A stretch of 20,353 nt of DNA from a virus, in IMG/VR virus record IMGVR_UViG_3300025131_000550, positions 1 to 20,353 of that record. One strand, 5' to 3'. Of this stretch, positions 3,461 to 15,815 are shown in pieces; position 1 is the first letter of the stretch; each line of letters begins with the position of its first letter. The notes beneath the pieces are model-generated. The model ran no database searches, was not told where the DNA came from, and was given only the letters and a program-made list of their open reading frames with translations. Position numbers and translations under genes: made by a program.

Positions 3461-3943
3461 TCAGACGGGCGACGTCAACGTAAAAAACGCCTGCCAGTCA
3501 TACGGCTCGTCAAAAACAGCCAGAGCCTCCACGGCTGCAAGGCCATCCATACGAAGATCAACAGCATCGGAGCCGCTGTAAACACTAATATCCAGGCTGC
3601 GGTCGCGAACAATAATAAAACAAGGCCCGCCGGTATGCCTAGACAGCCAAGAACACTGGTGCGGGGATAAATTGAGCTTACCAACGCCTGACTTTGCGAT
3701 TTTAAGCTCAAGGAAGCTAAAGACACCGCTTTCCGAGCATAAAAGAACATCGGGTACTCCGGGTATGGCCCAGCTTTCGAGTCGTGTTGTTTCAATCTTC
3801 CGCCCCGACTTTTTCAGTCCGTCGCTTATCAGACGCCACAACCCCGCTTCCCGATTCTTCAGCGCCGTCCTCGGAATCTTGTTCGATGATTTCTTCCGGG
3901 GTGATGTCGATAATTGGCTCAAAAGACTGTCTAATTCGGTCAA
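3461..3943 (-). CDS. VRR-NUC-like PD-(D/E)xK nuclease
   Basis: A 160-residue protein with the restriction-like nuclease core: E33 in the first helix (REAGLWRLI), GVPD with D65, and FLELK with E79 and K81, then SPHQCSWL with Q97. This order and spacing fit VRR-NUC / Holliday-resolvase-like phage nucleases, which cut branched or single-stranded DNA intermediates. The start is a TTG at 3941-3943, preceded by GGAGAAGGA. That places 152 nt of the gene inside the terminase small subunit gene in another frame. No ATG lies in frame before the catalytic core, so a long overlap is unavoidable. Likely roles are replication or packaging-linked DNA processing. Confidence 0.75.
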   Translation of the reverse strand: MTELDSLLSQLSTSPRKKSSNKIPRTALKNREAGLWRLISDGLKKSGRKIETTRLESWAIPGVPDVLLCSESGVFSFLELKIAKSGVGKLNLSPHQCSWLSRHTGGPCFIIVRDRSLDISVYSGSDAVDLRMDGLAAVEALAVFDEPYDWQAFFTLTSPV

Positions 3944-4412
3944 GTTCCTTCTCCACGTCCTCTCGGGTCATCTGGTCGATAGACCCGGTTCTGATCTCGC
4001 TCTTGCTTACATAGATATCACCCTGAGCCTGTCCGCGACGGTACTCGGCCTGCACGGCTGCCGAATAGGCTGAGTTTGCAAGAGCGAGATCGCGTATCTT
4101 TTGCAAATCCCGAATATGACGCTTATAGCCCACTTTGTATTGTTCATCTAGCTCGTCACGATAGCGCGATATCTCATTCACGACATGCGGACAGATATTG
4201 TAATTGGTTAGTTCGTGGGCTCTGGCATGGGCCGACCCCGCCGGATACCCGGCTCGAATAGCCGCTTCCCGCATAGTAATAAGACCATCATTGCTCACCA
4301 GTTCTTTAACAAATTTTTCCTGCCGCCGCGTTAATTTACGATTGGGGCCCCGATTGCCACCTTTTGGGGGTGTACCACCAGTCTTTTCATACACCTTATT
4401 TTGGTTGCCCAT
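3792..4412 (-). CDS. terminase small subunit
   Basis: A 206-residue protein of the Terminase_2 type. Residues 26-81 hold the DNA-binding domain: RKLTRRQEKFVKELV, then MREAAIRAGYPAGSAHARAHEL forming the HTH, then the VVNEI helix. The middle is helical (oligomerisation region in known relatives) and the C-terminus is an acidic tail. It would recognise the packaging site and recruit the large subunit, which is not in this window. The start at 4410-4412 is chosen for GGAGAGG just upstream; an ATG at 4458-4460 has no such site. The last 50 codons overlap the nuclease gene. Upstream lies a repeat-rich non-coding region that may contain its binding site. Confidence 0.85.
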   Translation of the reverse strand: MGNQNKVYEKTGGTPPKGGNRGPNRKLTRRQEKFVKELVSNDGLITMREAAIRAGYPAGSAHARAHELTNYNICPHVVNEISRYRDELDEQYKVGYKRHIRDLQKIRDLALANSAYSAAVQAEYRRGQAQGDIYVSKSEIRTGSIDQMTREDVEKELDRIRQSFEPIIDITPEEIIEQDSEDGAEESGSGVVASDKRRTEKVGAED

Positions 4413-4510
4413 ACTACCTCTCCAAAAGCACTCTAACCGCACTTTTTCCTTTAGTTTCATGGCTGTACCGCCAGTGTACCACCGATTAACTTTAACTTCG
4501 TCCCGTAAGT

Positions 4511-4538
4511 GGTATAGGACAAGTCCTGAAACAGTTAA
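4511..4538 (-). promoter_or_regulatory. weak promoter and dyad upstream of terminase gene
   Basis: On the minus strand TTAACT (4533-4538) and TATACC (4511-4516) are 16 bp apart, about 100 bp before the terminase start. The dyad AGGACAAGTCCT (4516-4527) fills most of the spacer. Its core, GGACAAGTCC, is identical to that of the dyad at 6181-6196 at another promoter. The hexamers are only fair matches. Confidence 0.35.
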
Positions 4539-4744
4539 CCTGAGTTAAAATACCCTACGGCACTCCGAAAACGAACTGCAATTAACTGAGACAGCGTCCC
4601 GCAACCAAGATTACGTGTGTTCCTAGCCGGTACGCCTCCAGACCCAAAAAATCCTTATAGAAGATATGGTTAGTAGACTGTACCACCTGTACCACCTGTA
4701 CCGTCTAAAAACTCGGGAATTTATTTTTTTTTTTCTCAGGAATT

Positions 4745-4760
4745 TACCACTATAGTGGTA
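4745..4760. promoter_or_regulatory. 16-bp perfect palindrome TACCACTATAGTGGTA
   Basis: The sequence at 4745-4760 is a perfect palindrome built from two inverted copies of the TACCAC core that recurs through this region. It is flanked on the left by an 11-T run (4724-4734) between two imperfect copies of CTCGGGAATTTA (4712-4723, 4735-4746). It is a strong candidate binding site for a dimeric protein. Confidence 0.6.
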
Positions 4761-4813
4761 CGGCGGTACGCCAGCCCCCTGTAAAGCCAGCTACTGGGAA
4801 GAACCGTGGGCCA

Positions 4814-4854
4814 TGGTTATTGACTAGTGGTTATTGACTAGTGGTTATTGATTA
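4814..4854. repeat. 14-bp tandem repeat TGGTTATTGACTAG, about 3 copies
   Basis: Two perfect units occupy 4814-4827 and 4828-4841; a third, diverging after TGGTTATTGA, covers 4842-4854. The array ends seven bases before the stop codon of the cysteine-protein gene. It is AT-rich compared with its surroundings. No terminator stem is visible here. Confidence 0.9.
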
Positions 4855-4861
4855 TTAACTT

Positions 4862-8645: not shown

Positions 8646-8679
8646 CTACTATACCTCGCTGCGCGGCGGGTGCAGAGGA

Positions 8680-8794
8680 GGGGGGTGGGAGACCGTTTTG
8701 GGATCGCGGTATACCAGCGACGAATAGCACCCGGCGCAGAATCCATGCGGAACGCGCTCCATAGGGGGGTGGGAGACCGTTTTGGGATCGCGGT
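8680..8794. repeat. 31-bp perfect direct repeat
   Basis: Positions 8680-8710 and 8764-8794 are identical over 31 bp; both begin GGGGGGTGGGAGACCG and end GGGATCGCGGT. The copies flank the damaged duplicate of the zinc-finger/basic gene region. The whole stretch 8646-8886 has no intact gene that I can support. Confidence 0.95.
8712..8757 (-). pseudogene. degenerate duplicate of the zinc-finger/basic-protein locus
   Basis: TACCAGCGACGAATAGCACC at 8712-8731 is identical to 8395-8414 in the zinc-finger gene, and a 16-bp block at 8742-8757 is identical to 8543-8558 in the basic-protein gene. In the intact locus these blocks are about 130 bp apart; here only 10 bp separate them. Translated, the first block still reads F-C-x2-C-Y-S-S-L-V. 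This is a partial, internally deleted copy with no ribosome site or usable start, so it is a remnant. Confidence 0.7.
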
Positions 8795-11648: not shown

Positions 11649-11874
11649 GGTAATCCTCTAGCACAACGACGCCATGGTTTCGTAGGTCGTGCATCCGGTT
11701 CATGTGATCGGCGTGTGCCTCATCAAGTTTGAAGTTCTCCATCTCCTCTTCGTAGCACTCGTCACATAACACCCCAAAACTCGGATCGGAGACGTTCTCG
11801 TCGTTGGGATTGAACACGCCCTCGCCGCAGTACGCGCAGCAAACGGATCCGGGCCACATTTTTTCAAAGCTCAT
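11638..11874 (-). CDS. Zn-binding acidic small protein
   Basis: A 78-residue protein with CAYCGEG at 13-19 and CDEC at 37-40, giving a four-Cys zinc site, followed by a long acidic helix (EEEMENFKLDEAHADHMNRM). The ATG directly follows the stop codon of the DUF6378-like gene, with GAGGAT six bases upstream. Its stop overlaps the polymerase start. I do not recognise the family. Immediate coupling with the polymerase gene suggests a replication accessory role, but this is only context. Confidence 0.65.
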   Translation of the reverse strand: MSFEKMWPGSVCCAYCGEGVFNPNDENVSDPSFGVLCDECYEEEMENFKLDEAHADHMNRMHDLRNHGVVVLEDYREK

Positions 11875-12537: not shown

Positions 12538-14060
12538 ATTGCCCACCCCCGCTGTGAATCCTCGGGCATCTTCAAAACCAAATTCTTCTTGGTCCTTGTG
12601 ACGCCAACGTATAGCACGCGGTGAGCGTCATCGGGGTTTTTTTCCATTTCTTTCAAAGCTTTGCCGGACAAGTCCGTGAACAGTAGGACGTTATCCGCCT
12701 CTCCGCCTTTTGCACCGTGGATCGTGGACAGTCGGATCTTAGGCTTCTCAAAAATGTTGACGCCCCGGTTCAGCAGCGCCGTCGCATAGGCCCGGTCCTC
12801 GTCCTCAATCCGGTTCAGCACCACGTCCCACGTTGCGTCGGGTGCCTCCAAGCCAAAATGCGCCCGCAACGTGCCCAACGAAAACAGGTCTTGTTCGTCG
12901 GCACCTCCCAGCATCTTCTTAGCGCCGCGTTTTAATCGGCCACTACCGCTAGATATGTGGTCGTAAAGGTTGACCGCTTCCTTTAAAGACACTTCGTGGT
13001 GAGGTCTTTGCTGGAGGTAGTTCCAAGATCCGATAGCGTTGCGGACGTTCTGTTTGAGAGATGGAGCGCCCCGGCGTTCAAAAAAATCTCCGCTTGATTT
13101 GAGGTGTGCAGCCAGATCATCCAGCATGTAATTGGCCTGCGCCAGAACCAACCACTCTTGGTCAGTACCAAACGACACGCCCGTTTCGTCGTAAGTGCGT
13201 TGCACGCTCCCCTCAAATTCTCTCGGCAACCAGTCCTTCTTCTGCCTCTTGTGAATTCTGCGGACCACGGAATCTGCAACCCGGTGTACGCTTCGCGGTA
13301 TTCGGTAGGACTGAGTGAGGACTTCAGAGCCGCCGCCCAGTGTCACGAACCGGTCAATGTCCGCGCCTGCCCAACGGTAGATGCCTTGGTCATCATCGCC
13401 TGCGACGAACATGCGGTCGCTTCTGTCACTCAGGTGGTGCGCCACTTTCCACTGCAACGGCGTCAGATCTTGCGCCTCATCCAGAAACACGGTTTTCAAA
13501 AACGGAATGCTTCCGGGCCTCTCCGACAGTTCAACCATCATGTCGGTAAAATCTTTCAACCCATTGACGGCTTTGAAGCGCGTGTACTCGGAGTAGAGAT
13601 GCTCAAATTCATAGAACGGTATGGGTAGCTCGGTCTGGTTGTAGGCATACAGCGGACCTTCCAGAGAATTCCGGGCTAGGTCAATTGCGCGCATGATGGG
13701 GTTGTTGCTTTTCAGCAACACAAAACCGTCATCCGCTATGTGCTCATTGCCCGCCGAAGACAGGTCAATGCCCGTCTCGTTGCTAAAGTTCTTGAGGCCC
13801 CGGTCGCCCAAGACCTCGGCAGCGGTCATCCCCAGAACCTGGAAAGCCAGACTGTGGAGGGTGCGGAAAAACTGGAAATCTTTTTCCGGGTCCAGATTAA
13901 ATCTAGCAACAGCACGGTCCCGTGCTTCGTGGGCCGCTTTCCGCGTAAACGCAAAATAGCCAATCTCGTTCGGAGCCATCCCCCCTGCCAGCAGGGCATC
14001 GACCTGATTCAGAAGCGTGGTGGTTTTGCCGGTCCCGGGAGGCCCAAAATACCTAAACAT
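12534..14060 (-). CDS. UvrD/Rep-like SF1 DNA helicase
   Basis: A 508-residue SF1A helicase, shorter than UvrD (about 720). Walker A GPPGTGKTT is at 6-14, motif Ia YFAFTRKAA near 35-43, motif II DEAQD at 194-198, motif III GDDDQGIYRWAGAD at 221-234, motif IV QSYRIP at 250-255, motif V STIHGAKGGEAD at 445-456 and motif VI YVGVTRTK at 484-491. Such enzymes move 3'-5' on single strands and support replication or repair. The short length suggests reduced 1B/2B subdomains. The ATG overlaps the stop of the XRE gene by eight bases. In the operon it lies between primase and polymerase, consistent with fork unwinding. Confidence 0.9.
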   Translation of the reverse strand: MFRYFGPPGTGKTTTLLNQVDALLAGGMAPNEIGYFAFTRKAAHEARDRAVARFNLDPEKDFQFFRTLHSLAFQVLGMTAAEVLGDRGLKNFSNETGIDLSSAGNEHIADDGFVLLKSNNPIMRAIDLARNSLEGPLYAYNQTELPIPFYEFEHLYSEYTRFKAVNGLKDFTDMMVELSERPGSIPFLKTVFLDEAQDLTPLQWKVAHHLSDRSDRMFVAGDDDQGIYRWAGADIDRFVTLGGGSEVLTQSYRIPRSVHRVADSVVRRIHKRQKKDWLPREFEGSVQRTYDETGVSFGTDQEWLVLAQANYMLDDLAAHLKSSGDFFERRGAPSLKQNVRNAIGSWNYLQQRPHHEVSLKEAVNLYDHISSGSGRLKRGAKKMLGGADEQDLFSLGTLRAHFGLEAPDATWDVVLNRIEDEDRAYATALLNRGVNIFEKPKIRLSTIHGAKGGEADNVLLFTDLSGKALKEMEKNPDDAHRVLYVGVTRTKKNLVLKMPEDSQRGWAI

Positions 14061-14277
14061 CGTCGGACACCTTCATTGCGTCGAGTTCGTAGCCAAGAGC
14101 AGCTAGGATTGTTTCAACCTTGTATATGGATAACTGTCTGGGGACGTTGATGTTTTCGTACTCCGCGACAGTCCTCTGGCTCATAGACGCCCTGTGGGCT
14201 AACTCCGCCTGCGAGATCCCGGCCTGCGTTCGCAACTCCCGAAGAATCACACTCCAGTTCTGTGGTGCATTGCTCAA
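14053..14277 (-). CDS. XRE-family HTH regulator
   Basis: A 74-residue protein with a Cro/CI-type helix-turn-helix: LRTQAGISQAELAHRASMS then QRTVAEYENI, residues 15-43. The rest (LSIYKVETILAALGYELD) completes the five-helix fold. The start is a TTG overlapping the primase stop, with GGAGGAGG upstream in the primase gene. It has no separate oligomerisation domain. It could regulate the divergent promoters at 17241-17290 or other phage promoters. Its place inside the replication operon would give autoregulation of that operon. Confidence 0.85.
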   Translation of the reverse strand: MSNAPQNWSVILRELRTQAGISQAELAHRASMSQRTVAEYENINVPRQLSIYKVETILAALGYELDAMKVSDDV

Positions 14278-15815
14278 AACGGAACCTCCTCCTCGTCCTC
14301 AAACCGGGATTCAAATTCCTCGGTGACCTTGGCGAACGCCGGGATAGACCAGCAACGGACCACGCGGCCTTTTATTCGGAACTGCTCGGACTTGCCGTCG
14401 ATGTCGCGAAGGCGCTGCGCGATTTTGTTGCTCTTATACTCAAAAAACTTGTTTCGTTTCAGGAAAGCCTCAAAGTCTTTAAGCCGGAAGAATGTTCGTC
14501 CCTGTTCTTCGTCGGTCCATGGGCGGCGGAGCAGCATTTCTTCCTTGTCGAGCGCGGACTGCATGTGCGTCGAAAATTCCTCCAGCATGTCGTAGAACTG
14601 ACCGCGCAGTGACGTGTCATCGGAGGTCGAGATTACCGCCCCCTCCGTGTCTAGCATCTGACTCAAGAGGTTGTTCATCTGGGCTTCCCATGCCTGCCGT
14701 GTGATCGTTCGGGGCATGAAGTTTATTTGCTCCATGCAGAGGATCTGGAAGCGTGGTTGTTTTTGCAGTCCCTCGGTGTCCAGTTCGACCGGGCTCCCGT
14801 TCACGTCGAGGAACCAGAGCGGCGGCTCGGAATCGTATTTTCGCAGGTTCGCAACGCTGGGCGTGTTCGCTCCACCGCCAACGCCGTGCTTGCGGCTACG
14901 GCACAGATCCCGGTTGCAAAAATTGCAGACTGGCTGGTCGGCACACTTGTACTGGTAATCTTTTTTCTTCACCTGATCCGCAACCACGTTGACCTCTTTC
15001 AGGTCTAGGGCGGGCTCCATGATTGTCTGGTTGTAGTCGAGGATCTTCGTTTCCCATTCGTCGGGGTAGGATTTGCGGAGGTACACTCCCAGATTGAACA
15101 GGCCGTTGTTCCGGGTACCCTGCGGAAAGCCCTGCCGCATTAGAGCCTGTAAGCACGGTGGACCATCCTTGAGTCTCTGATCGACCTCCGGGGCCTCAAC
15201 GCTTAAAAGTTCGTCTAAATTCTGTTCGCTGATGGCGGAAGCTTCCGCAAGGTCGAGAAACTCGTCCAACGTGGCCGCGCTGCCGTCCTCCTTGACGGCA
15301 TACCGCAAGCCGTTCTCTTGGTCGAAGTACGGCAAGTTCAGAAAGTTGCCGTTGTCCCCGCGCTCCAAAACCAGCTTTATCTGCTTGGGGAAAATCTCGC
15401 AGCCGCCAAACCCTATCTCGGATGCAATCTCTTTTAATTTAAGCTGGACCTTTTCGGCCTCTACTAACTCATTGAAAAACAAATAAATATGCGCCCCGCC
15501 TGATTTGCTTCTGCAAACCACCATTGGGAGGGCCAGCTTTTTGATCGTGGAAATTATCTGGATGTGGTCCAGGGGGTACTGGTCAACGTCAATTGCACCC
15601 CACCGGCATAAATTCTCCTCGTTAATTGGCACAACACCAATGCTCATCTCACCGCTCAGGTGGGATTCAAACGTGTCGGCGGTCCGTGGTTCGTGGATGA
15701 ATTTGTATTTGCCTTTGACCTTCCCCCGCGCATCCTTGTTGGTGAGGTCGAGGGCCCCGTATGCCCGGTTCAATCCACGGAACAGCCGTGCGAATCTGTT
15801 TACTTGCTCCTGCAT
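14274..15815 (-). CDS. AEP-superfamily DNA primase
   Basis: A 513-residue protein. AEP motifs: GAIDVDQYP with D76 and D78 (metal binding), SKSGGAHIYLFF with H109, and IFPKQIKLVLERGDNGNFLNLPYF (141-164). The set resembles the primase domain found in TOTE-type and phage systems. A Cys cluster (C291, C297, C300, C305, ending CRSRKHG) looks like a PriCT-type metal site. The C-terminus is acidic and ends EEEVPF, like SSB tails. The ATG at 15813-15815 has no close ribosome site; a G-rich candidate lies beyond a hairpin at 15823-15845. The role is primer synthesis, possibly primase-polymerase activity. Confidence 0.8.
   Translation of the reverse strand: MQEQVNRFARLFRGLNRAYGALDLTNKDARGKVKGKYKFIHEPRTADTFESHLSGEMSIGVVPINEENLCRWGAIDVDQYPLDHIQIISTIKKLALPMVVCRSKSGGAHIYLFFNELVEAEKVQLKLKEIASEIGFGGCEIFPKQIKLVLERGDNGNFLNLPYFDQENGLRYAVKEDGSAATLDEFLDLAEASAISEQNLDELLSVEAPEVDQRLKDGPPCLQALMRQGFPQGTRNNGLFNLGVYLRKSYPDEWETKILDYNQTIMEPALDLKEVNVVADQVKKKDYQYKCADQPVCNFCNRDLCRSRKHGVGGGANTPSVANLRKYDSEPPLWFLDVNGSPVELDTEGLQKQPRFQILCMEQINFMPRTITRQAWEAQMNNLLSQMLDTEGAVISTSDDTSLRGQFYDMLEEFSTHMQSALDKEEMLLRRPWTDEEQGRTFFRLKDFEAFLKRNKFFEYKSNKIAQRLRDIDGKSEQFRIKGRVVRCWSIPAFAKVTEEFESRFEDEEEVPF

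Follow-up and report, generated by a model that had tools for sequence, protein, structure and literature searches.

What reads the short repeats that lie in and just upstream of the terminase small subunit gene (TerS) of this phage? The window, that is, the whole 20,353-nt stretch of viral DNA analysed here, carries TerS at 3792..4412 on the minus strand, assigned by phrog_51 (E=2.2e-8) and by Terminase_2 with an E-value of 1.2e-4, just under the curated cut-off. The gene probably starts at the ATG at 4412, because the conserved Shine-Dalgarno sequence TTTTGGAG supports this start, and the repeat copy at 4371 would therefore lie inside it. With this start, the non-coding stretch that a preliminary description had put at about 450 bp measures 449 bp (4413-4861). 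That description proposed a packaging site recognised by TerS and named a replication origin or an operator cluster as the alternative.

The motif TGTACCRCC matches exactly five times in the window, always on the plus strand (4371, 4464, 4475, 4679 and 4688), compared with 0.16 matches expected. None of 100 shuffles gave five matches, and 1000 Markov simulations gave at most two per 450 bp; the five observed copies span 326 bp. No match was found elsewhere in the window, and all six matches of GGYGGKACR in a near-identical 28-kb record likewise fall within the array. Including near-copies, inverted copies and a palindrome, the array is restricted to 4371-4770. Three plus-strand copies follow one another at exactly 9-bp pitch, as first described: TGTACCACC at 4679..4687 and again at 4688..4696, and TGTACCGTC at 4697..4705. 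The last of these carries one mismatch, and the earlier count of at least six direct copies thus comes to five exact copies and one near-copy. Two further exact copies, TGTACCGCC at 4464..4472 and TGTACCACC at 4475..4483 (both +), form a pair at 11-bp pitch, and the copy at 4371..4379 (TGTACCACC, +, exact) falls within the TerS codons GGT GGT ACA (Gly-Gly-Thr).

Alignment blocks revealed a degenerate copy at 4594..4602 (+, GCGTCCCGC), which in the window phage did not take part in the switch to the GT word, and an inverted degenerate copy at 4628..4636 (CGTACCGGC on the minus strand). Between these and the triple lies an AT-rich, TATA-like core at 4645..4678 (AAAAAATCCTTATAGAAGATATGG), which contains the conserved TATATAAGG block and is a possible melting region. 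Beyond the triple, an A/T tract at 4716..4738 belongs to an A-tract block conserved in relatives. The inverted sites and the perfect 16-bp palindrome reported earlier were recovered: the alignment of relatives places inverted near-copies on the minus strand at 4754..4762 and 4762..4770 (the latter CGTACCGCC), and the palindrome TACCACTATAGTGGTA occupies 4745..4760, of which relatives keep only CACTATAG. Other repeats were also observed. In the interval that separates the array from the upstream gene, TGGTTATTGACTAG occurs three times in tandem (4814-4855); it is present in the near-identical L006 and absent from most relatives. A ACCACGGCCCACGGTTC-like element lies at 4800-4820, and many relatives have one directly upstream of their array too. 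GC-rich tandem repeats (GGGCACC x7.7 and GGCAGATCCGGGCC x4.9) occupy the left end of the window at 71-194, and a 32-bp sequence is repeated 84 bp apart in a gene-poor stretch at 8679-8794.

We then gathered relatives of TerS from viral contigs. In 144 typed relatives from the window's TerS group, the array, including its in-gene copy, was found upstream of the gene. Read in the orientation of TerS, the conserved order begins with inverted copies and CTATAG, followed by an A-tract and the triple of direct copies at 9-bp pitch. Next come the TATATAAGG block, one inverted and one degenerate copy, and CAGTTAA...TTAACTG; the pair of direct copies at 11-bp pitch, then the Shine-Dalgarno sequence and a copy inside TerS complete the order. 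The position claimed for the array, within and upstream of the gene, is thus a conserved one, and a wider group of relatives has the same layout. The density of the GT word was 1.69 per kb within -450..+150 versus 0.037 elsewhere, and that of the GG word 5.84 versus 0.026 per kb. The region -320..-40 was AT-richer than its own locus in 167 of 200 relatives, and the AT enrichment is modest in the window itself. In the 55.7-kb record of one relative (L299, G013:16642-16867), the exact sequence GGCTCTATATA occurs only twice, as an inverted pair that brackets the array and lies within it. TATATAG boxes were considered as late promoters and rejected, the exact box being confined in that record to the array, as an inverted pair.

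The repeat word itself switches as a set between genomes. It follows the form GGTG-NN-AC, where NN is GT, GG, TA, TT or GA: the window phage has GGTG-GT-ACA, most of its close relatives have GGTG-GG-ACA, and members of the wider group have GGTG-TA-AC, GGTG-TT-AC or GGTG-GA-AC. Two relatives (L046 and L047) carry GGTGATAGGA, and phages of the HTVC023P type carry CTAGGAAA. Among genomes with the GT, GG and GATAGG words, 386 of 407 typed copies match the majority word of their own genome, and the in-gene copy is kept in relatives with the GT word and in those with the GG word. On the TerS tree the switch is polyphyletic, the GT word having arisen several times. That short repeats spread over 400 bp and both strands change together implies a sequence-specific reader that has switched too.

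If TerS were that reader, the array would be a pac site, where recognition of the repeats by TerS is followed by a TerL cut nearby and the start of headful packaging. In every lineage the array lies next to TerS, even where, as in HTVC023P-type phages, the downstream nuclease gene is missing, and it extends into the TerS gene, as a pac or cos site near or inside TerS would. The DNA-binding domain of TerS, however, does not change with the word: L011, which has the GT word, shares every residue from 25 to 95 with L019 and L021, which have the GG word, and none of 203 TerS columns separates TA from TT genomes. Weak associations between TerS columns and words were found, and TerS was rejected as the sequence reader since these are contradicted by the identical domains. 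Repeat identity would also be hard to explain in a pac site, given that in vitro the TerS of phage SF6 has little preference for its repeats (PMC4737164). Contig ends form no sharp cluster at the array; this speaks against a cos end, a reading we rejected, and is uninformative on a headful pac. The linkage to TerS that the preliminary description relied on is therefore conserved, whereas the word does not follow TerS; on these comparisons TerS appears to lose support as reader of the repeats, and we regard a pac site read by TerS as unlikely.

Two further features of the TerS locus were noted. An AT-hook-like RGRP/GRPK motif precedes the TerS helix-turn-helix (HTH) in many relatives (L081:2834-3472 has PKRRGRPVKKTK); this is a reading of the motif alone, no description of it was found in a literature search, and the TerS of HTVC023P-type phages lacks it. 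Where present, RGRP would fit the A-tracts, in favour of a pac site. Directly downstream of TerS, a PD-(D/E)XK/VRR-NUC-like gene (3461-3943), possibly a packaging or resolvase nuclease, is found in all typed relatives except the HTVC023P type, where 1 of 51 phages has it. Its product was rejected as the reader because HTVC023P-type phages lack it and because it does not diverge according to word.

To find where else such words occur, we scanned public viral contigs for them in tandem. As a result, 80 loci adjoined the window's TerS family and 27, in unrelated phages, adjoined SF3 primase-helicase genes, at a median distance of 174 bp across all three words. Exact tandem GGGACA was found at 23 loci beside SF3 genes versus 9 beside the window's TerS family. 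Neighbours at the SF3 loci include VapE-like, DUF5906 and DUF927 domains, and the words occur there without the window's type of TerS, which further argues against a pac site; they lie on the 3' side of the primase-helicase genes. Several pattern matches outside both contexts were coding repeats, for example in collagen-like genes, and were excluded from the array count; most of the 112 unassigned GGTACA matches are probably of this kind.

Because of the SF3 loci and the likeness of the array to the P4 origin, we examined the phage's own primase as the reader. This AEP-TOTE primase (14274..15815, minus strand; PF22548, E=3.4e-14) lies 9.5 kb from the array; AEP-TOTE is its only Pfam match, and it has no SF3 helicase domain. 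Every long record extending into this part of the genome contained a relative of it, and the last 90 residues of the protein vary by word. The C-terminal domain (14277..14543, minus strand) is modelled as a winged helix with moderate confidence (local pLDDT about 72). Its structural matches, all at Z<8, are weak and lie among winged-helix DNA binders, including the C-terminal part of the SCCmec Cch helicase (Z 7.0). A sequence search of solved structures gave no match for this domain, and no sequence homology to the C-termini of SF3 proteins or P4 alpha was detected.

Covariation between the primase and the word was assessed in 21 related genomes that have both primase and array and are not phylogenetically independent. 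Residue 478 (codon 14382-14384, minus strand), located in the predicted winged helix, was the best-associated column: it is Q with the GG and GT words, K with GA, V with TA (9/9) and L or Q with TT (3/3). It was also the only primase column with disjoint residues in TA and TT genomes, a selected result, since all columns were scanned. The contrast includes three genomes with the TT word. Moreover, one or more C-terminal columns also distinguished 44 of 220 arbitrary triples of T-word genomes, so phylogeny is a real concern. The cleanest contrast is the pair L098 (TT) and L272 (TA), in which primase residues 477-478 change from RL to TV and the TerS DNA-binding domains match. Residue 485 is V in the window phage, the one GT-word genome in which primase and array were found together, and each of the four GG-word genomes has T there. 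In 75 close primases on contigs that do not include the array, T is the most frequent residue at this position (52), followed by V (10), a ratio in line with that of GG to GT arrays, without a genome-by-genome linkage.

Taken together, the array is probably an iteron-type replication origin read by the phage primase, and the origin that the preliminary description named as the alternative is now better supported than a packaging site read by TerS. What was observed is the array with its conserved layout, words that switch en bloc between genomes, covariation at residue 478 of the primase, and the recurrence of these words at SF3 genes. From these we infer that primase copies would bind the GGTGNNAC iterons through the C-terminal winged helix and that the AT-rich stretch between the two iteron sets would open. 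Replication would start at the array, with leading-strand synthesis primed by the primase and another helicase unwinding, and the origin would be located upstream of TerS and slightly within it. A fuller proposal is possible, although we hold it only tentatively: a primase lacking an SF3 helicase of its own would read a P4-like origin through its C-terminal winged helix, one or two wing residues (478 and 485) would set the two central iteron bases, primase and about ten scattered sites would have switched specificity together repeatedly in a large marine phage group, and the origin, embedded in the terminase locus, may also guide packaging.

Other readers were also weighed. Host-type initiation at a DnaA origin was rejected: DnaA boxes are not enriched at the array (0.029 vs 0.023 per kb), and the HTVC023P array shows no GC-skew inflection. 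These negative results also count against the origin reading, as do the 9.5-kb distance of the primase gene and its lack of an SF3 helicase domain. An operator cluster for TerS or the late transcript, bound by a phage regulator, would suit the stretch before TerS, the only long non-coding one there, with its TATA-like elements. A small HTH protein of the XRE type is encoded at 14053-14277 in the window; its relatives in these loci were too few for a comparison as reader. However, the TATA-like boxes are inverted rather than repeated promoters, and the same words lie elsewhere on the 3' side of primase-helicase genes, making an operator cluster very improbable. Since the position of the array resembles that of the SPP1 pac, origin and packaging site could also overlap, with the iterons as the target of the primase and bent A-tract DNA as that of TerS. 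Two kinds of conserved elements (iterons and A-tract/TATATAG boxes), the inverted GGCTCTATATA pair in L299 and the AT-hook-like TerS arms are consistent with such a division. Both bindings are predictions from sequence, however, and the AT-hook is a motif reading that fails in HTVC023P-type TerS; we consider this overlap rather improbable.

Should the reading of the array as an origin used by the primase hold, a replication origin would be located for a widespread, pelagiphage-related marine phage group, for which none was named in the papers searched, and its likely reader would be identified. Close relatives that differ in iteron word and in one or two primase residues would form natural pairs suited to tests of the recognition rule. 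Repeats adjoining TerS genes would not need to be TerS sites, which would help explain why TerS binds pac repeats weakly in vitro.

Among known systems, the array resembles the origin of P4, which has type I iterons and whose alpha protein binds origin repeats through a C-terminal winged helix (PMC4234260). The P4 record annotates origin repeats GGTGAACAG and ori/crr repeats GGTGAACA(G). Both systems combine an AT-rich core and A-tracts with inverted copies and with tandem copies whose pitch is 9-11 bp, and the words are similar (GGTGAACAG in P4 vs GGTGNNACA(G) here). In contrast to P4, the word here is one base longer and variable, a single array replaces ori plus crr, the primase is of the AEP-TOTE type without an SF3 helicase and encoded 9.5 kb away, and the C-terminal domains have no detectable sequence homology. 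Origins of PICIs (including SaPIs) consist of two iteron sets around an AT-rich region, with a word specific to the initiator (PMC6092414), and the array has a similar layout; PICI origins lie immediately 3' of rep, whereas the array lies at TerS. The SPP1 pac has direct repeats across the promoter region and the start of the TerS gene (PMC4737164), and the array, like the SPP1/SF6 pac, spans the start of that gene; it differs in its approximately ten repeats, which are homogeneous per genome, and in a word that switches without a change in TerS. In Pelagibacter phage HTVC023P, CTAGGAAA occurs five times at 11680-11764, upstream of TerS at 11866; position and pair spacing match those of the window array, while the word is unrelated and the C-terminal domain of the primase different. 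The array has the short direct iterons with inverted copies and the two iteron sets around an AT-rich region that characterise P4/PICI origins. Because its putative initiator has no SF3/VapE/DUF927-type helicase and its gene does not adjoin the array, we do not assign the array to that class, and it is best read as a variant of the P4/PICI-type origin that overlaps the terminase gene.
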